From assembly GCF_029714365.1 (NCBI RefSeq), contig NZ_CP121659.1, positions 372,001-436,000 of the forward strand: 64,000 bases of DNA. Reading direction: 5' to 3'. Below are positions 3,199-55,690 of the stretch, piece by piece. The stretch is from Sinorhizobium terangae. Its GTDB lineage: Bacteria > Pseudomonadota > Alphaproteobacteria > Rhizobiales > Rhizobiaceae. The position numbers and the translations under genes are program-made. The notes under the pieces are model-generated. The model saw nothing but the letters and a program-made list of their open reading frames with translations. It made no database searches and was not told where the DNA came from. Position 1 is the first letter of the stretch. The number at the start of each line of letters is the position of its first letter.

Positions 3199-3291
3199 GC
3201 GCGCGTCCTATCGGGCGCAAAGGACACTGTAGCACTTTGAATTTTTACATGTTTTATCCCTGAATCGGCGACGATTTAAGGGAACCTGTAG
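3199..3291 (+). repeat. Two-palindrome intergenic repeat (RIME-like), forward copy
   Basis: Member of the dispersed element seen throughout this window. It has a first palindrome around GCGCGTCCTATCGGGCGC, the linker AAAGGACACTGTAGCACTTTGAAT, and a second palindrome built on ATCCCTGAATCG and CGATTTAAGGG. The arrangement resembles published rhizobial intergenic mosaic elements; that name is used by analogy. Confidence 0.75.
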
Positions 3292-3293
3292 TA

Positions 3294-3318
3294 GGAACCA
3301 AGCACTCGCTCGGGCGTT
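3294..3318 (+). promoter_or_regulatory. Putative EcfG/RpoE2 (general stress) promoter
   Basis: GGAAC at 3294-3298, 16 bases, then CGTT at 3315-3318. This fits the alphaproteobacterial general-stress promoter (GGAAC-N16/17-CGTT). The CGTT ends 32 bases before the ATG of the small membrane protein at 3351, the same geometry as at three other sites nearby. Confidence 0.7.
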
Positions 3319-3350
3319 TATCGGTCATTCCTAACGGAAGGAAATGACCA

Positions 3351-3521
3351 ATGCTCTACTGGCTGCCCCGCTTTTTCGTGCTGGCGCTCGCAGGGATCGT
3401 AATCGGTTTCGGCCTCCTCCCGCAGACAACGGATGAAGTGGCGCGCATGCTGCTGATAATCGTTCTGGGGTTGGGCCTGCTCTCCCTGACGCTCCATCTA
3501 TTCCCACCCGGACAACGCTGA
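3351..3521 (+). CDS. Small two-helix membrane protein, probable stress gene
   Basis: A 56-residue protein that begins MLYWLPRFFVLALAGIVIG and contains two hydrophobic segments (about residues 4-22 and 33-50) separated by a short polar linker with acidic residues (TTDEVARM). A good ribosome site (GGAAGGAA, 8-10 bases upstream) supports the ATG. A stress-type promoter lies just upstream, and the AI-2E-family transporter gene begins 84 bases downstream in the same direction, so the two may be cotranscribed. I do not recognise a named family; the function is unknown. Confidence 0.75.
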   Translation: MLYWLPRFFVLALAGIVIGFGLLPQTTDEVARMLLIIVLGLGLLSLTLHLFPPGQR

Positions 3522-3605
3522 GCGACGCCTTTGTGAAATGCGAATGTGTCGGGTGCGGGAGCGGGGGCGGAATGTTCCGGATTGCAGTCTGAAAAGAAGG
3601 ATGCG

Positions 3606-4724
3606 ATGCAAATTACGACTGACCGCAAACCGGAACGCAGCGTGGGCAAGAATATCGCCCTGGCCGAATCGCCGACGGTCGTCGTGCGAAAGCGCAACGG
3701 GATTGAGGCTTTGGTCGCGCTAAGCACGGTGGGCCTCTTCGTCATCGCCTGCTCGGCGGCCGTCTATTCCATGGAAGCAATCCTCATGCCGATCACGCTG
3801 GCGATTATCGTTGGCATCGTGCTTGGCAGGGCGGCCGACGAATTGGAGAGATTCGGCCTGCCGCCGATCTTCGGCGGCCTTTTGCTGGCGCTTGTCTTCG
3901 TGCTCGGGCTGTCTTCGCTGGTGAATGCACTTCTCGGCCCCATCACCGACATCGCGCGTGAGGCACCCCGGCTGGCCGAGGGCGTCGTGGATCGGATATT
4001 GCCGTTCATCGAGCGGTTCACCTGGTTGAGAATGGCACTGATACGCAATGCCGACCCGAATGCACTTGCCGACGCGCTCGTAAAGAACGCCGGCCCCATG
4101 CTTGGAACCGTTGCAGCAGGCTTGACGCCGGCACTCATCCAGACACTGATCTTTCTGGCAGCCCTTGTGCTTTTCCTTCTCGGCCGCCTACAACTGCGCA
4201 ACAGCATTATCCTTGCCTTTGCCAGCAGGGATCGTCGCTTGAACGCGATCCGGATCATGAACGCAACCGAGGATGCCCTCGCCCAGTATTTTTCGACTGC
4301 GAGCCTCATCTATCTGGTGCTCGGCGTGATGACGATGGTGATCGCGTTTGTCGGCGGGTTGACCATGGCGCCGCTGTGGGGGTTGTTTGCCTTCGTCTCG
4401 AGTTTCATCCCCTATCTGGGTGTGACTTTCATGACGCTGTCGCTTCTCGTCGGCGGATTGATGACGCACGACGCGCTGCTGCTCGGGATTGCGCCCGCTG
4501 TTGCCTTCTTCGTCGTGCATCTGCTCATGGAAAATCTCGTCGTCCCAGCGGTCGTGGGGCACCGCTTCGCGGTCAATCCATTCCTGATTTTCATCGCGAT
4601 CATTTTCTGGACCTGGATGTGGGGCGCCGTTGGCGCGCTTCTGGCGCTACCCCTGTCACTTATCGCCATGACCGTTTTCGAGCAGGTGCGCGAACCGCCT
4701 GCCGAGCGGCAGTTGCCGGAGTGA
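3606..4724 (+). CDS. AI-2E family (PerM/TqsA-like) membrane transporter
   Basis: Polytopic inner-membrane protein of 372 residues in the PF01594 family, which includes putative autoinducer exporters and Na+/H+ antiporters. After a polar N-terminus there are paired helices (IEALVALSTVGLFVIACSAA and following), a central periplasmic region rich in charged helices, and a C-terminal membrane block with the family-typical WGLFAFVSSFIPYLG and MENLVVPAVVGHRFAVNP segments. The ATG at 3606 is chosen because AGAAGG lies six bases upstream; the longer frame to 3546 lacks a ribosome site. It may be coexpressed with the stress-promoter gene at 3351. The substrate is not predictable. Confidence 0.85.
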   Translation: MQITTDRKPERSVGKNIALAESPTVVVRKRNGIEALVALSTVGLFVIACSAAVYSMEAILMPITLAIIVGIVLGRAADELERFGLPPIFGGLLLALVFVLGLSSLVNALLGPITDIAREAPRLAEGVVDRILPFIERFTWLRMALIRNADPNALADALVKNAGPMLGTVAAGLTPALIQTLIFLAALVLFLLGRLQLRNSIILAFASRDRRLNAIRIMNATEDALAQYFSTASLIYLVLGVMTMVIAFVGGLTMAPLWGLFAFVSSFIPYLGVTFMTLSLLVGGLMTHDALLLGIAPAVAFFVVHLLMENLVVPAVVGHRFAVNPFLIFIAIIFWTWMWGAVGALLALPLSLIAMTVFEQVREPPAERQLPE

Positions 4725-4762
4725 GGTCGGATCCGATACCGGGTAGCTGGCGGCGCGGGCCG

Positions 4763-4864
4763 CTACGGCACCGCGCGTCTTTCAGACGCGCAAAGCTCGC
4801 TGTGGCACTTTGAATTGCCGCATGCCTTTACCCTTGAATCGGCTGCGATTTAAGCAAGCATGCA
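4763..4864 (+). repeat. Two-palindrome intergenic repeat (RIME-like), forward copy
   Basis: Same element as at 3199. CGCGCGTC pairs across TTTCA with GACGCGCA, followed by the TGGCACTTTGAATTGC linker and the second palindrome ending GCATGCAG. It lies between the convergent AI-2E and phyR genes, six bases from the phyR stop, where its stems could act as a transcription end. Confidence 0.75.
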
Positions 4865-4869
4865 GTGGC

Positions 4870-5667
4870 TTAGGGGCGCCCGGTGCGCGCCTGCTCGTCG
4901 AAGAACAGGGCTTGGCTGATCAGCGCCTTCACCATTTCCGGATTGAAGGGCTTCGTTACCAGAAAAGCCGGCTCAGGCTTCTTGCCTGTCAGGAGCCGCT
5001 CGGGGAAGGCCGTAATGAAGATCACCGGCACGGTGGTTTCCGCCAGGATATCGTTGACGGCGTCGATACCCGAACTGCCGTCGGCGAGCTGGATATCGGC
5101 AAGAACCATTTTCGGCGAAGTCGTCCGATAGAGTTCGAGCGCCTCGCGATACGTTCGAGCAATCCCGGTGACGCGATGTCCGAGGCTTGTCACCATGTCC
5201 TCGATATCCATGGCGATCAGCGGTTCGTCTTCGATAATCATGACCTCGGTCGCCACCTGACGGGAAATGTCCTGTGACGCCCCGGCGAGCAGAGTGGTCA
5301 AGGCGCCCGGGTCAAGGTTCATGATTTCGGCCGCCTCGCTCGTGGAAAAGCCTTCGACCGCGATCAGCAGGAATGCCTGGCGCGGTGCCGGTGCGATCAG
5401 CGACAGATTGGCTGCGGCCTGGCGCTCCCAGGCGAAGGGTGATGTCAATTGCGTGCGATCGATTTCGAGCCTGTCGAACAGGCTGCAGAACAGCTTGTAG
5501 AGAGCGATTCGGTCGTCGGAGGCGGTCGGAAACAGGCTGACGTCCTCGATCAGCGCCTCGAGCACGGCGGCAACATAGGCGTCTCCTGCGGCTTGCGAGC
5601 CCGTGACGGCGCGGGCATAGCGTCGCAGATAGGGAAGATGTGGCGCAATCCTGGTCGAAAGTGACAT
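4870..5667 (-). CDS. phyR: PhyR-type general stress response regulator (anti-anti-sigma)
   Basis: PhyR proteins hold an EcfG-like sigma domain that, once the receiver is phosphorylated, captures the anti-sigma factor NepR and so releases EcfG. Here residues 1-140 form the sigma-like domain (sigma2-like LRRYARAVTG start; sigma4-like FLLIAVEGFSTSEAAEIM) and residues 141-260 the receiver, with acidic pair E146-D147, phosphoacceptor D191 (VLADIQL), the FITAFPERLL segment typical of this receiver class, and conserved K239. Length 265 matches the family. A ribosome site (AGGAAA) precedes the ATG. nepR lies divergently. In Sinorhizobium these genes are called rsiB/rsiA, and two pairs exist; the missing EcfG gene suggests this is the pair not linked to rpoE2. 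Confidence 0.93.
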   Translation of the reverse strand: MSLSTRIAPHLPYLRRYARAVTGSQAAGDAYVAAVLEALIEDVSLFPTASDDRIALYKLFCSLFDRLEIDRTQLTSPFAWERQAAANLSLIAPAPRQAFLLIAVEGFSTSEAAEIMNLDPGALTTLLAGASQDISRQVATEVMIIEDEPLIAMDIEDMVTSLGHRVTGIARTYREALELYRTTSPKMVLADIQLADGSSGIDAVNDILAETTVPVIFITAFPERLLTGKKPEPAFLVTKPFNPEMVKALISQALFFDEQARTGRP

Positions 5668-5798
5668 TTAGGGTTTCCTAAACTATTGTGCCGGTATGGT
5701 CCCGGTCTTGCGGACAATGGGCGTGCAGCAGGATACGTCAATGTTTTGAGCACGTCTTTCGGATAATGGAAAGCCTAGAGTAGACAGATGACGGGCAT

Positions 5799-6038
5799 AT
5801 GGGACAGGAATGGCCGGAACAGGGGGATACGGCCTTCGGCGCGCGGAAGCGGAAAATGAACGGGCCTTCCGGACGGCGCAAGGCGCCGGGCGCTGCCTCG
5901 ATGAACGATCCGAGCGCACAGATCGCATCGAAATTGAAGGCGCTTTACCAAGCCTTGGAAAACGAACCAATTCCGCGGCAGTTTATTGATTTGCTTGAGC
6001 GGCTTGACGCGGCCGAGAGCGCGCAGTCACGGCGCTGA
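5799..6038 (+). CDS. nepR: NepR-type anti-sigma factor of the general stress response
   Basis: Small protein that holds the EcfG sigma factor inactive until bound by phosphorylated PhyR. The C-terminal half carries the NepR core: IASKLKALYQALENEPIP followed by RQFIDLLERLD, the two helices that wrap the sigma factor. From the ATG at 5799 it is 79 residues. That ATG has no clear ribosome site, whereas ATG 5856 (60 residues) follows GGAAGCGGAA, so the shorter form is plausible. It is divergent from phyR across a 131-base gap in which I could not find a GGAAC/CGTT promoter. Confidence 0.85.
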   Translation: MGQEWPEQGDTAFGARKRKMNGPSGRRKAPGAASMNDPSAQIASKLKALYQALENEPIPRQFIDLLERLDAAESAQSRR

Positions 6039-6137
6039 TCCCGCCGTTCGATTGAGGGCTTCGCACGGGAACGTCAGATAGGCGCGAGCTTGCAGGGAGC
6101 GTGCGTGCCAATTGCGTGCCAACTCGGCGGCATAACT

Positions 6138-6240
6138 CCAGCGCTGCGCGTCCAATCGGACGCGCAAGGTCGCTGTAGCACTCCGAATTGCTGCATGATC
6201 TTACCTTGAATCGATTCCGATTTAACGGATCATGCGGCAG
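6138..6240 (+). repeat. Two-palindrome intergenic repeat (RIME-like), forward copy
   Basis: GCGCGTCC-AATC-GGACGCGC stem, CTGTAGCACTCCGAATTGC linker, then the second palindrome from CTGCATGATC to GATCATGCGG with ACCTTGAATCG and CGATTTAACG arms interrupted by one base pair. It lies between nepR and the convergent lipoprotein gene. Confidence 0.75.
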
Positions 6241-6269
6241 CCGGCCGGGTTTCGCGCTGGCTACCCCGA

Positions 6270-6518
6270 TCAGCAACGCGCAGTGTAGCGGCGGCCGTAT
6301 TGGTCGCGATAGTAACAATAGCCGGGCTCGTTCGCACGACCGATAAGGGCGCCGGCCACACCACCGATGCCGGCGCCAACGGCTGCTCCGCGAACATTTC
6401 CAGTGGCTGCCCCGCCGATGATCGCGCCAGATGCGGCACCGATGCCGGCGCCCCTTTCCGTTGCCGTGCAGGCTGCAAGGGGAAGGATCAGGCTGGCGAC
6501 GAGAAGTATCTTCTTCAT
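6270..6518 (-). CDS. Small glycine-zipper lipoprotein
   Basis: An 82-residue envelope protein. The N-terminus (MKKILLVASLILPLAAC) is a lipoprotein signal peptide with the lipobox LAAC, Cys at residue 17. It is followed by a glycine-zipper stretch (GAGIGAASGAIIGGAATG and a second block to about residue 62), the kind found in outer-membrane 17-kDa-antigen/SlyB-like proteins, and a short aromatic C-terminus (YCYYRDQYGRRYTARC). AGGA eight bases before the ATG supports the start. It is probably anchored in the outer membrane; a specific role cannot be assigned. Confidence 0.8.
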   Translation of the reverse strand: MKKILLVASLILPLAACTATERGAGIGAASGAIIGGAATGNVRGAAVGAGIGGVAGALIGRANEPGYCYYRDQYGRRYTARC

Positions 6519-6862
6519 GATGCGTTCCTATCCGAGGTTTGGTTGCTGAACTGCGGGATGAAGCAAGCCGTGTCGTGCGACCGGACACAGCCTTTAAGAT
6601 GTCATGAGAAGGGCTCTCGTCCCAACCTCTCGGGATGCCGGCGATCACCGGGCGTTTCGGCCGTCTTGGGGCTGGTCACACCAATCACTGTCGGCCCTCT
6701 CATTCGTATCTCCTAAAATATCGCCACTGCCACGACGCTCGTTAGTTGTTGCGCAAACGCTGATTGCCGCCTTTTTGTTCCGCCTATGCACCGCCAACGC
6801 GCGTGATGGTTGCTCTGCGCTCAAGATTGATGCCGGTCGGCGGAAGGCGATGGCCCAGCCAT
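6519..6862. other. No gene seen
   Basis: This 344-base gap holds no ORF with protein-like composition or a ribosome site. It separates the lipoprotein gene from the next rightward unit, whose promoter begins at 6863. Confidence 0.5.
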
Positions 6863-6888
6863 GGAACCGCCTAGGGGCCTCCGCCGTT
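6863..6888 (+). promoter_or_regulatory. Putative EcfG/RpoE2 (general stress) promoter
   Basis: GGAAC at 6863-6867, 17 bases, CGTT at 6885-6888. It ends 28 bases before the ATG at 6917 and would drive the 6917 gene together with the CsbD-like gene 33 bases behind it. Confidence 0.7.
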
Positions 6889-6916
6889 TGTTCTGCGTGT
6901 CGAAGGAGCGCGGAAA

Positions 6917-7237
6917 ATGGAACATGTTGCCGCCATCATGGTTCTTGTCGGTTGCATGCAGAATACGACAGCGTGCCGGGAGGTGCCGTCGCCGGTCGTT
7001 GCCTTCGAAACCATGGAGGAATGCCAGGCCTTGCTTCCTCCCGCGATGGGGGAAGTGGGCAAGGTTTTCAAGTCGGCATACGGCAAGTGCGCCGAGGTTG
7101 ATCCTGCGCTCATCGTCGAAAGTGCGGTGATCGAATGGGCGATCACACCAGCGGGCAAGCTTGAAGTGAGCGTGACGCCCGATGAAGAACCTTATGCGGT
7201 TGCAGGCCGTGCCCGTCCTTCGGCTGGCGATGAGTGA
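6917..7237 (+). CDS. Hypothetical small protein, likely exported, stress-promoter unit
   Basis: A 106-residue protein of no family I recognise. The N-terminus is moderately hydrophobic (EHVAAIMVLVGC) and could be a weak signal sequence. Four cysteines (MLVGCMQ.., TTACREV, EECQALL, GKCAEV) are spaced in a way compatible with two disulfides in the periplasm. The C-terminus is polar. AAGGAG lies about ten bases before the ATG, and a GGAAC/CGTT stress promoter lies just upstream. The following CsbD-like gene is 33 bases away, suggesting a two-gene stress operon. Confidence 0.7.
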   Translation: MEHVAAIMVLVGCMQNTTACREVPSPVVAFETMEECQALLPPAMGEVGKVFKSAYGKCAEVDPALIVESAVIEWAITPAGKLEVSVTPDEEPYAVAGRARPSAGDE

Positions 7238-7270
7238 CTTTCCGCATCAAGAATTGAAAGGAGCGCATTC

Positions 7271-7468
7271 ATGAACTGGGACATCATCGAAGGCCGGTGG
7301 AAAGAATTCAAGGGCAAGGCCCAGGTGCAGTGGGGAAAGCTTACCAAGGATGATCTCGACATCATCAACGGCAATCGGAAGGAGCTCGCCGGGCGCATTC
7401 AGGCGCGCTACGGAATTGCCAAGGACGAGGCGGAGCGCCAGATCGACGAATGGGCATCACGCCATTAG
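7271..7468 (+). CDS. CsbD-like stress protein
   Basis: A 65-residue hydrophilic protein of the CsbD family. Hallmarks are the start MNWDIIEGRWKEFKGKAQVQ, the WGKLTKDDL centre and the C-terminal GIAKDEAERQIDEW helix. Members are abundant stress-induced proteins of unknown biochemistry, often under general-stress sigma control. AAAGGAG lies eight bases before the ATG. It is probably cotranscribed with the gene at 6917 from the stress promoter at 6863. Its TAG stop is formed by the first bases of the repeat that follows. Confidence 0.88.
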   Translation: MNWDIIEGRWKEFKGKAQVQWGKLTKDDLDIINGNRKELAGRIQARYGIAKDEAERQIDEWASRH

Positions 7469-7569
7469 AGCGGGATGCGTTTACGTGCGTTCGCGCCGCT
7501 GCTCTATCTGTTTGTTTTTGCCGCATTTGTGCGGCGTCAGGTGATTCCACCTGACTGCAGAATGCTCTA
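7466..7569 (+). repeat. AGAGCGGGATG-type dispersed repeat, copy 1
   Basis: Begins TAGAGCGGGATGCG and ends ATGCTCTA, with internal CTGCTCTATCTGTTTGTTTTTG. I recognise this pattern as a common rhizobial intergenic repeat. Its first three bases are the stop codon of the CsbD-like gene. Confidence 0.6.
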
Positions 7570-7634
7570 CCGGGCTGGCGAAACGCGTCTAACGCGACGC
7601 ACGTGCGTCTGGTGACGACGGACGTCGCCCGTCA

Positions 7635-7826
7635 TCAGTGGATATCGCGTTCGGCTTTTTCCAGAGCCTCGAGAAGAGCCTGGAGACGTTGGTTGCGCTT
7701 CTCTTCCGTGTGGATGTGAAGATCGCGGATCGTCCTGCCAATATGCAGATTATGGCTGCGCACGGCTGCGTTGTGCCGGGCGACCTCCGTTACCGATTTC
7801 CATATATGTCGAGACGGAATCTTCAT
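7635..7826 (-). CDS. Small helical hypothetical protein with stress promoter
   Basis: A 63-residue basic protein with no recognised family. The second half (EEKRNQRLQALLEALEKAER) is predicted to be a single amphipathic helix, and the first half is rich in His, Arg and Asn. GGGA lies five bases ahead of the ATG. On its own the ORF would be doubtful because a larger frame covers it on the other strand, but a GGAAC-N16-CGTT stress promoter faces it with the same 30-base distance to the start codon as in the three neighbouring units. Confidence 0.55.
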   Translation of the reverse strand: MKIPSRHIWKSVTEVARHNAAVRSHNLHIGRTIRDLHIHTEEKRNQRLQALLEALEKAERDIH

Positions 7827-7856
7827 CGCGTTCCCAAGAGCGTTCGTTACCGGAAC

Positions 7857-7881
7857 AACGCCAAGCCCTATCGAAGGTTCC
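7857..7881 (-). promoter_or_regulatory. Putative EcfG/RpoE2 (general stress) promoter, leftward
   Basis: On the minus strand: GGAAC (7881-7877), 16 bases, CGTT (7860-7857). CGTT ends 30 bases before the ATG at 7826. It faces away from the rightward promoter at 7998, giving a divergent pair. Confidence 0.65.
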
Positions 7882-7997
7882 TGGCGAATTTTGTCCCCTC
7901 GTGCCGATCCTGGTGCGTTTGCCGTTTCTTGGTTAACGAAAGGTTTTCTTTCGCCTCACAGGTCTTTCGCGGTCTCGGCGTGAGCAATATGGAGCCC

Positions 7998-8023
7998 GGA
8001 ACAAAGGCGACGAGCCGCGCGTT
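7998..8023 (+). promoter_or_regulatory. Putative EcfG/RpoE2 (general stress) promoter
   Basis: GGAAC at 7998-8002, 17 bases, CGTT at 8020-8023. The end of CGTT is 33 bases before the ATG of the DUF1328 gene. Confidence 0.75.
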
Positions 8024-8056: not shown

Positions 8057-8221
8057 ATGCTCTACTATGCACTCGTCTTTCTGATCGTTGCCATCATCGC
8101 CGGCATTCTCGGCTTTGGTGGTATTGCCGGAGCTTCGGCGGGCATTGCCCAGGTCTTGTTCTTCCTGTTCCTCGTATTCTTGGTGATTTCTCTTATTGCC
8201 GGACTCATGCGCAGGACCTGA
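8057..8221 (+). CDS. DUF1328 small membrane protein
   Basis: A 54-residue protein with two hydrophobic helices (about residues 3-24 and 30-50), starting [20 protein letters not shown]. That start, the [14 protein letters not shown] turn and the C-terminal LMRRT are typical of the DUF1328/YtjA family of tiny inner-membrane proteins of unknown function, often stress-induced. GGAG lies six bases before the ATG. A stress promoter is upstream and a strong terminator starts 30 bases downstream, so it is a single-gene unit. Confidence 0.88.
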
Positions 8222-10291: not shown

Positions 10292-10511
10292 TGCATGAGG
10301 CAATTCCAGGGGAAGCGCGCCTCCCTGCCGCCGACGATAATTTTCCTCGCCGATGGCGGCATCGTCGTGCCGATTTATTCTCGCGATGTGGAACCAAACG
10401 GCCGCTCAGGTGTTTCATCGGTGGCTGAAGGCGAGGGTTCGGTTCGTTGGCGCCTGCCCAGCGAAAATTTACCCGTCGCTCCACGAGCCGCCGGGAGGGA
10501 GTTTCACACCT

Positions 10512-10796
10512 ATGAGTAAGCAGACGATAGAATTCGCTGGCGAGGCGGTCGGCGCACTGATGCCTGACAACGGACAATTGCGTTTTGTCGCTGTCAAATA
10601 CAGTGTGTGGCCGCTGGACGGCCAGGTATTCCAAACGCCCGAAGATGCCCGCCGGGCGGTCGCCATGCTGCAGGCACACCGACAGAGAGGGCCGGCCGTG
10701 CGGAGGAATCCGCGCGCAGGCCCAGCACCCGTTGCCGGCCGTCCCGAGCCGGAAGTTCCATATGCCTTTCCCGGCGCTGTAGGCCAAACGCCATGA
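10512..10796 (+). CDS. Hypothetical protein, small rhizobial type
   Basis: A 94-residue protein. Residues 1-55 look like a folded domain (QTIEFAGEAVGALMP, LRFVAVKYSVWPLDG, TPEDARRAVAMLQAHR), after which the sequence turns Arg/Pro-rich. The ATG at 10512 follows GGGAGGGAG. I know similar short rhizobial proteins only as hypothetical. A weaker stress-like site (GGAAC at 10390, 16 bases, TGTT at 10411) lies 97 bases upstream. Function unknown. Confidence 0.6.
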   Translation: MSKQTIEFAGEAVGALMPDNGQLRFVAVKYSVWPLDGQVFQTPEDARRAVAMLQAHRQRGPAVRRNPRAGPAPVAGRPEPEVPYAFPGAVGQTP

Positions 10797-11441: not shown

Positions 11442-11490
11442 CAGTGCTCCAGTGTCCCTTGCGCGTCTGATTAGACGCACGGCGCTGCAG
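11442..11490 (-). repeat. Partial two-palindrome repeat (RIME-like), reverse, first palindrome only
   Basis: CAGTGTCCCTTGCGCGTCTG followed by ATTAGACGCACGGCGCTGCAG matches the reverse-complemented first palindrome and linker of the full copies; the CTGCATG...CATGCAG half is absent. It lies just upstream of the mgtC-like gene. Confidence 0.6.
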
Positions 11491-11572
11491 TCAATATTTG
11501 CCCCTCTCCTAACCCGGTCCCCGCGACGAGGAGAACCGGTCCTCCTCGTTTATGATAATCCTTAGCCAGATC

Positions 11573-11881
11573 TTATTGTGCCGGTTGTGCCGGTTGCGCC
11601 GGCGTGGTCTGCGGCTGTGGTGCCGTTGGCGGCGTCGTTTGTCCGGCCGGAGGCGTTGCCTGGCCCGTTGCCGGTGGCGGCGTCGCCTCTTCCGTGTCCC
11701 TGGTCAATTCTGCGGGCAGCCAGGCGATCAGCGCCAGCACCAGCCCCGCGAGCAGAATGATCAGCAAGGGCCAACTGCTGCGGCCTGACGTTTTGCCGCG
11801 CATCTCGGGTTCCCGGGGCGTCGGCTGGCCGGTCACGGGATCGATGAGTGGCTTGTCCTTCAGTTCTTCATGCTGATTCAT
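11573..11881 (-). CDS. Single-pass membrane protein with Pro/Gln/Thr-rich tail
   Basis: A 102-residue protein. Residues 1-36 are polar (HEELKDKPLIDPVTGQPTPR), one membrane helix follows (WPLLIILLAGLVLALIAW), and the remainder is a low-complexity tail of Pro, Thr, Gln and Ala (about residues 65-102) that would lie in the periplasm. The ATG at 11881 follows AAAGGA at about ten bases; an in-frame extension to 11908 is less likely. No family recognised. Confidence 0.65.
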   Translation of the reverse strand: MNQHEELKDKPLIDPVTGQPTPREPEMRGKTSGRSSWPLLIILLAGLVLALIAWLPAELTRDTEEATPPPATGQATPPAGQTTPPTAPQPQTTPAQPAQPAQ

Positions 11882-12389
11882 CGCATTCACATCCTTTCTG
11901 GACGTCATTCATTGCCGGCGCCAAGCAAAGCAGTTGCAGGCATGTGCTCCCTAAATCTGCAGAGACCTAAGGAGTGACTCCGTACCATCGCAAGTATAAT
12001 CGCGACTTCGCCTCGGCCGGTCAGAGCCACGGTAAAATATTAAAACGTTCCAGATCTTGCTAAGTTCCGATACCGGCGGCCAGAGCTACAATTTGCCTCG
12101 CAAAGGTGCTTTACCGATACGTGGTGTAACTGCGAAAGGCTCGTTTGAATGCCGCGAAAACGCTGCATGCATCGGGAGCTGGGAAGTGGCTGCTGCATAT
12201 CAATCGAATGCCCGCCATGGCATTCCACACAACGGCGCTGATCAGCAATCTGTCGAAACGCAGATTGCTGGAGGCACGGAAAACATTCGCTGTTTGCGAA
12301 GATGCCGGGCGGCTTGCGTGAGCGCCCGGTTACGCGCAATCTTGCGCGTGCCGAATGATCGGTTCGTTCGAAGTGGGGTTGGGATCGCA
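11882..12389. other. No gene seen
   Basis: About 500 bases without convincing coding sequence. A rightward frame from 12057 runs through here into the gene at 12390, but its first 111 codons have no protein-like pattern. The part 11980-12060 is noticeably AT-richer than the surroundings and could hold a promoter. Confidence 0.5.
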
Positions 12390-54706: not shown

Positions 54707-55690
54707 ATGACGGTTTTTCATCGCAACGAAACCCGTGATCCGCTTCCGGAGCGCCTGCGCGGCGGCGTCATCGCGATCGGCAATTTCGATGGCGTTCACC
54801 GCGGACATCAGTCGGTGTTGAACCGGGCGCTGGACGAAGCGGCGAAACGCAGCGTTCCCGCGCTCGTCCTGACCTTCGAGCCGCATCCACGCACCGTCTT
54901 CAGGCCGGACACGCCGGTCTTCCGCCTGACGCCCGCCCCGCTCAAGGCCCGCATCCTCGAAGGCATGGGCTTCGGCGCCGTCATCGAATACCCCTTCGAC
55001 CGGACCTTCTCTCAGCTTTCCGCGTCCGATTTCATCCATCGCATCCTGCGCGAATGGCTGCATGCATCCCACGTGGTCACCGGCTTCGACTTCCATTTCG
55101 GCAAAGGGCGCGAAGGCGGCCCGGCATTCCTGATGGCGGCCGGCGAGCGGGAGGGTTTTGGCGTCACGCTCGTCGATGCCTTCCGCGATGAAAACGCTTC
55201 GGTGATCTCGTCGAGCTTCATCCGTTCCCTGCTCGCCGAAGGGGATGTTGCGCACGCGGCAGGACTGCTCGGTTACCGTCACACGGTCGAGGCGGAAGTG
55301 ATCGGCGGCAAGAAGCTTGGACGCTCGCTCGGCTTTCCGACCGCCAATATGAGGCTGCCGCCCGAAGCGGAACTCAAGAACGGCATCTACGCCGTGCGGT
55401 TCCGCCGCGCCGATGGCTCTCTTTACGACGGCGTCGCAAGCTACGGCCGTCGCCCGACCGTCGACAGCGATGGCGAGCCGCTGCTGGAGACTTTCGTCTT
55501 CGACTACTCCGGTGAGCTTTACGGCGAAGTCTGCAGTGTCTCCTTCTTCGGCCATCTCCGCGATGAGCTCAAGTTCGATGGATTGGAGCCGCTGATGGCG
55601 CAGATCAAGCGCGACGAGGAGGAGGCGCGCCAGCTCCTTTCCGGCGTCCAGCCCCTGAGCGAGATCGACCGGAGACTCAATTTCGCCTGA
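54707..55690 (+). CDS. ribF: Bifunctional riboflavin kinase / FAD synthetase
   Basis: Makes FMN and FAD from riboflavin. It is 327 residues. The N-terminal FAD-synthetase domain shows IAIGNFDGVHRGHQSVLNRA, LTFEPHPRTVF, VTGFDFHFGKGREGG and SSSFIRSLLAEG; the C-terminal kinase domain shows GRSLGFPTANMRLP and GVASYGRRPT. GGGAAG precedes ATG 54707. It is the second gene of the HAD-ribF unit. Confidence 0.94.
   Translation: MTVFHRNETRDPLPERLRGGVIAIGNFDGVHRGHQSVLNRALDEAAKRSVPALVLTFEPHPRTVFRPDTPVFRLTPAPLKARILEGMGFGAVIEYPFDRTFSQLSASDFIHRILREWLHASHVVTGFDFHFGKGREGGPAFLMAAGEREGFGVTLVDAFRDENASVISSSFIRSLLAEGDVAHAAGLLGYRHTVEAEVIGGKKLGRSLGFPTANMRLPPEAELKNGIYAVRFRRADGSLYDGVASYGRRPTVDSDGEPLLETFVFDYSGELYGEVCSVSFFGHLRDELKFDGLEPLMAQIKRDEEEARQLLSGVQPLSEIDRRLNFA

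Follow-up and report, generated by a model that had tools for sequence, protein, structure and literature searches.

The alphaproteobacterial general stress response (GSR) is governed by a partner switch between PhyR, NepR and the sigma factor EcfG/RpoE2, whose mechanism is established (PMC3616915, PMC6180224). In Sinorhizobium meliloti, rsiA1 and rsiB1 depend on RpoE2 and rsiA2 does not (PMC3616915, PMC4814048), and the role of additional phyR-nepR copies has been called unknown (PMC4814048). Expression measurements in Sphingopyxis granuli, whose motif is GGAAC-N16-CGTT with a flexible -10 box, show that csbD depends on EcfG (PMC7083833). The locus described here lies in a stretch of 64,000 nucleotides (nt) of the nitrogen-fixing soil bacterium Sinorhizobium terangae (NZ_CP121659.1, positions 372,001 to 436,000), hereafter the window, in which a second phyR-nepR pair, phyR2-nepR2, stands amid a group of predicted EcfG-type promoters. 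The best explanation, with a probability of roughly 0.93, is that this island consists of conserved EcfG/RpoE2 target promoters attached to an orphan regulator pair which would itself escape feedback control. Promoters of this class are known; the interest lies in their arrangement.

EcfG-type sites and their conservation

Both strands of the window were scanned for the strict motif GGAAC-N16/17-CGTT, with shuffled sequence as a control. Seven strict matches were obtained against 1.04 expected, and none of 100 shuffles reached seven. Five fall in the interval 3294-8023 and a sixth, 12044-12068(-), is located just outside it (Table 1). When any base was allowed before GTT in the first 13.5 kilobases (kb), a TGTT variant at 10390-10414(+) was gained, and the sites of this 8.8-kb region are therefore six strict ones and one variant. 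The only other addition, a GGTT match at 6919-6943(+), overlaps the start of the gene for a 106-residue cysteine-containing protein and looks like chance.

The first-pass annotation of this DNA had reported four sites in 4.7 kb. All four are present on the strands and at the coordinates it gave, and re-measurement returned the same distances between CGTT and ATG; the count was too low, since 6756-6781(-) in the same interval had been overlooked. The uniform geometry on which it insisted likewise holds at those four sites, where a distance of 28-33 nt is to be expected of a short leader that includes a Shine-Dalgarno site, and does not extend to the other three, whose distance to the following candidate ATG is 52-237 nt.

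Table 1. Predicted promoters and genes of the island, with one remote site (window coordinates; aa, amino acids; ORF, open reading frame; E, E-value)
Feature	Position	Strand	Remarks
Predicted EcfG-type promoter	3294..3318	+	GGAAC-N16-CGTT; CGTT ends 32 nt before ATG at 3351 (56-aa gene)
56-aa two-helix membrane protein, divergent DUF1328 relative	3351..3521	+	Pfam DUF1328 E 0.0041, NCBIfam PRK13682-type E 1.7e-5, both below cut-off
AI-2E family transporter, 372 aa	3606..4724	+	PF01594 E 2.6e-35; 84 nt behind 56-aa gene, same strand
phyR2, second phyR (RsiB2 type)	4870..5667	-	PF22029, PF22233, PF00072: sigma-like and receiver domains
nepR2, second nepR (RsiA2 type)	5799..6038	+	PF18557 E 1.5e-12
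Glycine-zipper lipoprotein	6273..6518	-	PF13488 E 2.4e-9; PF08139 lipoprotein signal 20.4 bits, cut-off 20
33-aa ORF in leader behind site 6756-6781	6605..6703	-	Place occupied by DUF3309 gene in Rhizobium-type relatives
Predicted EcfG-type promoter	6756..6781	-	GGAAC-N17-CGTT; 52 nt before 33-aa ORF, 237 nt before glycine-zipper gene
Predicted EcfG-type promoter	6863..6888	+	GGAAC-N17-CGTT; CGTT ends 28 nt before ATG at 6917 (106-aa gene)
106-aa protein, four Cys	6917..7237	+	Four cysteines invariant in 27 aligned sequences
CsbD-like protein	7271..7468	+	PF05532 E 7e-17; 33 nt behind 106-aa gene, no own site in window
63-aa protein	7635..7826	-	Met1, H28, G30, T32, L36, L51, L52, L55 and E59 invariant in 26 aligned sequences
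Predicted EcfG-type promoter	7857..7881	-	GGAAC-N16-CGTT; CGTT ends 30 nt before ATG at 7826(-) (63-aa gene)
Predicted EcfG-type promoter	7998..8023	+	GGAAC-N17-CGTT; CGTT ends 33 nt before ATG at 8057 (DUF1328 gene)
DUF1328 protein, 54 aa	8057..8221	+	PF07043 E 9.9e-16
Predicted variant EcfG-type promoter	10390..10414	+	GGAAC-N16-TGTT; 97 nt before ATG of 94-aa gene
94-aa protein (MSKQ...)	10512..10796	+	Downstream of TGTT variant site
111-aa Pro/Thr-rich ORF	11573..11908	-	One hydrophobic stretch; start at second or later ATG possible
Predicted EcfG-type promoter	12044..12068	-	GGAAC-N16-CGTT; 135 nt before 111-aa ORF
Strict match remote from island	55379..55403	-	Seventh strict match of window

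The strongest evidence that these matches are functional comes from related loci. These were collected by a contig search with the window PhyR, and the best 80 of 446 relatives (L045-L124) were used; orthologues were placed by tblastn at a coverage of at least 50%, and the motif was sought near the projected start. Within 130-140 nt, the strict motif is found upstream of 47 of 48 orthologues of the 56-residue gene (15 cross-hits to its DUF1328 paralogue having been dropped; in the sole miss, L107, the motif is 112 nt away), 47 of 51 of the 106-residue cysteine gene, all 48 of the 63-residue gene and 70 of 75 of the DUF1328 gene. A tighter stretch of 75 nt gives 45/51, 47/48 and 70/75 for the last three. 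Of the 65 orthologues of the glycine-zipper gene, 60 have a strict motif no further than 320 nt away, and a few of these may be credited with a neighbour's site (L054, for example); two of the five misses (L046 and L050) carry a duplicated gene, with the site some 250 nt ahead of its first copy. The corresponding count for the 111-residue gene is 31 of 34, within 180 nt. For the 94-residue gene, strict CGTT is found within 160 nt in 18 of 36 orthologues, and A/C/T-GTT in 34.

When 200 permuted motifs were applied to six of these genes, the 94-residue gene being left out, not one was present at as many as half of a gene's orthologues, and the highest count was 6. Control genes of the same loci have few strict sites within 130 nt (UPF0114, 0/36; AI-2E, 2/56; phyR, 10/80), and nepR has one within 200 nt in a single orthologue of 62. 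Conservation is also concentrated in the boxes: in Sinorhizobium and Ensifer, the nine box bases of the four sites first reported are 100, 99, 100 and 97% identical to the window, as against 56, 50, 75 and 65% for the spacers and 35-51% for the upstream DNA. Taken together, the boxes with a spacing of 16-17 nt at six sites, the base-by-base retention of boxes over spacers at four of them, and the leader distance make promoters of the EcfG/RpoE2 type highly probable. The permuted motifs and the orthologue counts support the proposal of the first-pass annotation that its four sites are real promoters, in that they behave as EcfG/RpoE2-type promoters under selection.

The sites are also clustered. 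The genome (6.63 Mb, three contigs) contains 161 strict matches, and 20,000 simulations with 161 uniformly scattered positions were run for comparison. At their respective scales, the five sites in 4.7 kb and the six in 8.8 kb form the densest cluster of the genome (simulated frequencies 0.0009 and 0.00025). The first-pass annotation had proposed a scan of the whole genome to ask whether hits are concentrated here more than by chance, and these figures indicate that they are. At a scale of 20 kb this region, with seven sites, ties with a region of contig C2 that has seven in 19.4 kb (simulated frequency 0.0016).

Although gene order has been rearranged, the loci of Sinorhizobium, Ensifer, Shinella and the Rhizobium type all retain the linkage of the same genes to phyR2. 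In S. meliloti 4H41 (L062), the motif is found before the DUF1328, 63-residue and 56-residue genes. Other genes have sites in the five Rhizobium-type loci inspected (L089, L102, L104, L105 and L107), and Pfam identifies those of L089 as encoding a PRC-barrel protein and a DUF3309 protein. As judged from these loci, the target island is conserved in Sinorhizobium and Ensifer and occurs in altered order in other Rhizobiaceae. SMc00796 of S. meliloti is the listed counterpart of the Ensifer adhaerens DUF1328 proteins (PMC6637203); its tag is two numbers from that of rsiB2 (SMc00794), which is in line with the presence of the same island in that species. Upstream of SMc00795, the tag next to rsiB2, there is a perfect-match site for Clr, the receptor of cyclic AMP and cyclic GMP (cAMP/cGMP), that is weakly bound in vitro (PMC10127613).

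The phyR2-nepR2 pair and the history of the locus

The window PhyR shares 83% identity with the copy of S. meliloti 4H41 as against 69% with the first PhyR of its own genome, and is therefore assigned to the RsiB2 type. Six PhyR_sigma2-like matches occur in the genome, with phyR2 alone in the window region. The first-pass annotation was right to place the island beside phyR and nepR, with the qualification that this pair is a second copy: no ecfG/rpoE2 gene was found at its locus, and the other pair occupies C1:2623-2625 kb together with rpoE2 (C1:2623 kb), at a distance of about 2.2 Mb on the contig. In the window, neither a strict nor a relaxed EcfG site is found within 200 nt of phyR2 or nepR2.

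The same association is seen in the relatives. Twelve of the 80 loci contain an ecfG gene (>45% identity to RpoE2); 10 of them have a strict site no more than 350 nt from phyR, compared with 1 of the 68 loci that have no ecfG. The lone exception among the 68, L120, is a contig of 8.5 kb from which ecfG may have been cut off. This difference suggests that the sigma-less phyR-nepR copy is without EcfG feedback. With PhyR beside NepR, no sigma gene and no EcfG autoregulation site, the window pair is, by sequence, of the RsiB2-RsiA2 type.

Some loci hint at how this arrangement arose. Ten of the 12 ecfG-bearing loci have a DUF1328 gene no more than about 4 kb from phyR. In four loci of Ciceribacter/Rhizobium (L106, L111, L118 and L122), phyR-nepR, a weak match to the cysteine protein (28-38% identity), DUF1328, a second nepR and ecfG are found together within about 5.5 kb, possibly as an unsplit ancestral or a tandem-duplicated arrangement. 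It is plausible that an ancestral locus of regulators and targets was duplicated and then split, the targets staying at the sigma-less half. Both observations favour the view that the clustering is purely historical, the targets having been left over from one half of an ancestral GSR locus, and that its linkage to phyR2-nepR2 is functionally meaningless; the persistence of this linkage through rearrangement in four groups of loci might, on the other hand, mean selection. A purely historical origin is fairly probable. It is compatible with an island of EcfG/RpoE2 targets and does not dispute the promoters.

The functional alternative, in which phyR2-nepR2 and the EcfG target island constitute a single inherited module and a pair free of feedback has been kept physically next to a constant group of small stress genes, seems rather unlikely. 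If it were true, the pair might set a stress threshold specific to these neighbours, or maintain regulators in constant reserve, and this would explain the retention of a second, sigma-less pair in rhizobia.

Genes of the island and sites elsewhere in the genome

The products of the island are probably membrane, envelope and stress-survival proteins. The first-pass annotation went further, calling all of them small envelope or stress proteins. Smallness does not hold throughout, since the first gene is followed by one for an AI-2E-family transporter, and the functional label is unsupported for the 106- and 63-residue proteins, because neither matches a family in Pfam or NCBIfam. Similarly, no family was found for the 94-residue protein in a Pfam scan or for the 111-residue protein in an NCBIfam scan.

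Two genes may be served by the promoter of the gene before them. The AI-2E gene is possibly co-transcribed with the 56-residue gene: of 56 orthologues, 24 lie behind that gene without a site of their own and 7 have their own site. With neither feature in the remaining 25, its membership in the island is no more than possible. The case of csbD is clearer, as it keeps access to an EcfG-type site when gene order changes. Among 43 orthologues, 27 lie behind the cysteine gene without their own site, 6 show both features, 9 are located elsewhere with their own site and only 1 (L098) has neither; 42 of 43 thus lie behind the cysteine gene or have a site, and 9 of the 10 that are not behind it have their own.

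In Rhizobium-type and Shinella loci (L073-L121) the promoter corresponding to 6756-6781 is followed by a DUF3309-type gene, confirmed by Pfam for L089 and of the same sequence type in other loci inspected. In Sinorhizobium the promoter is kept and this gene is absent; what is left in Sinorhizobium and Ensifer is mostly a start region with short, poorly conserved ORFs. The promoter seems to have outlived its gene. A GsrN-like small RNA, raised by the 237-nt gap before the glycine-zipper gene, was also considered and is less likely than a lost or diverged ORF in a leader, because the DUF3309 ORF fills the interval in Rhizobium-type relatives and mostly a start region remains in Sinorhizobium and Ensifer. 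A search of the whole window with Rfam at gathering thresholds returned one tRNA and nothing else.

The leader behind the site at 12044 contains, in the window, a 12-codon ORF preceded by GGGAG; the distance from this site to an MNQR start is 48 nt in L104 and 52 nt in L110. The window also holds three direct copies of a dispersed intergenic repeat (3215-3292, 4788-4866 and 6161-6238), part of which is inverted at 11443-11491. The first copy stops just before the promoter at 3294. The repeat has no Rfam match at gathering thresholds, and presumably resembles the intergenic repeats of rhizobia.

Strict sites are grouped in other parts of the genome too. On C2, seven surround the gene for a sigma factor that shares 40% identity with RpoE2 (C2:1821208-1840596; L125 and L126). 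This is a possible second stress island, perhaps an rpoE5-like locus, a name we infer. Four further strict sites, three of them within 1.9 kb, are located at C2:1592000-1606500 (L127). The main GSR locus has three within 1.1 kb, the third of which, L039:9101-9125(-), is behind phyR1 and directed towards it. Its placement recalls the EcfG-driven small RNAs ReC64 and GsrN of relatives (PMC3892343, PMC5869019). A scripted search found no ORF behind it, a weak result since the same search overlooked nepR1. Of the family members encoded elsewhere, the DUF1328 copy (L130) has no strict site, and the DUF3309 copy (L128) has a single one on the minus strand.

If the island works as proposed, phosphorylated PhyR would bind NepR under stress and free EcfG/RpoE2, and RNA polymerase carrying this factor would start at the GGAAC-N16/17-CGTT sites. 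Seven short transcripts would result, for the 56-residue gene (possibly with AI-2E), the glycine-zipper gene, the cysteine gene with csbD, and the 63-residue, DUF1328, 94-residue and 111-residue genes. Because phyR2-nepR2 has no recognisable EcfG promoter, the pair should be independent of the sigma factor to which its neighbours would respond.

Competing explanations and relation to described systems

Several observations weigh against an island of EcfG/RpoE2 targets. The locus of S. terangae USDA4894 (L045) is almost identical to the window and the 80 loci are related, so that their counts are not independent. In a 350-nt stretch, window included, the control genes are less clean (AI-2E, 26/57; UPF0114, 7/37) because such a stretch reaches a neighbour's site; in loci with a window-like layout the AI-2E matches are the site of the 56-residue gene, 287 nt away in the window. 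When RpoE2 was overexpressed in S. meliloti, the signal of an intergenic probe 5' of SMc00794 (rsiB2) increased and that of the gene itself did not (PMC3616915), so that some RpoE2 input near rsiB2 is possible. Genome-wide, the strict matches (76 forward, 85 reverse) hardly exceed the 142 obtained with the same pattern read backwards. The N16 spacing holds the entire excess (94 against 74) and N17 shows none (67 against 68); the motif by itself therefore says little about any single site.

A further point concerns the identity of the sigma factor. The boxes could be real extracytoplasmic function (ECF) promoters read partly or wholly by another factor, such as the RpoE2 paralogue of C2, whose gene lies inside a region that, at the 20-kb scale, is as rich in strict sites as that of the island and which could read some of the island's sites. 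Rhizobium etli, for example, has two EcfG factors whose targets are partly shared (PMC3892343, PMC6180224). Against this, overexpression of RpoE5 in S. meliloti yielded a single putative target whereas RpoE2 raised 320 genes (PMC6180224), and reading by another factor is considered improbable. Chance matches in a GC-rich genome, falling together by coincidence, would fit the near parity of forward and backward counts and have a negligible probability, being ruled out by the permuted motifs and by the conservation of boxes over spacers, with near-complete orthologue counts and a cluster P below 0.001 pointing the same way.

The preferred explanation, conserved EcfG/RpoE2 targets beside an orphan pair, has two consequences. 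It turns motif matches into well-supported candidate promoters for the four-cysteine, 63-residue, 94-residue, 111-residue and DUF1328 proteins, which would place these in the general stress response. It also links the second rhizobial phyR-nepR copy with EcfG targets that are conserved as a set, although the copy itself seems to lie outside EcfG feedback, and offers a starting point for its role. No description of a conserved island around the orphan pair was met in the open-access texts consulted, supplementary tables apart, and it may already be known.

The nearest counterpart is the EcfG/RpoE2 regulon of S. meliloti, which belongs to the same genus and in which RpoE2 promoters precede mostly uncharacterised genes, more than 100 of them apparently activated directly (PMC3616915, PMC6180224). 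The species differs, and the text sections on that regulon in these two papers, gene tables apart, make no mention of sites clustering around rsiB2-rsiA2. The window pair resembles RsiB2-RsiA2 of S. meliloti in having no adjoining sigma gene; protein interactions, among them binding to RpoE2 and NepR, as well as phosphorylation and partial redundancy are reported for the S. meliloti pair only (PMC4814048), that of the window being known from its sequence. A third parallel is provided by the phyR-nepR-ecfG core loci with GsrN and ReC64, in which EcfG targets are also found near the core regulators (PMC5869019, PMC3892343). In those cases a small RNA is located at the sigma locus, whereas in the window mostly small protein genes are gathered around a pair that has no sigma gene.

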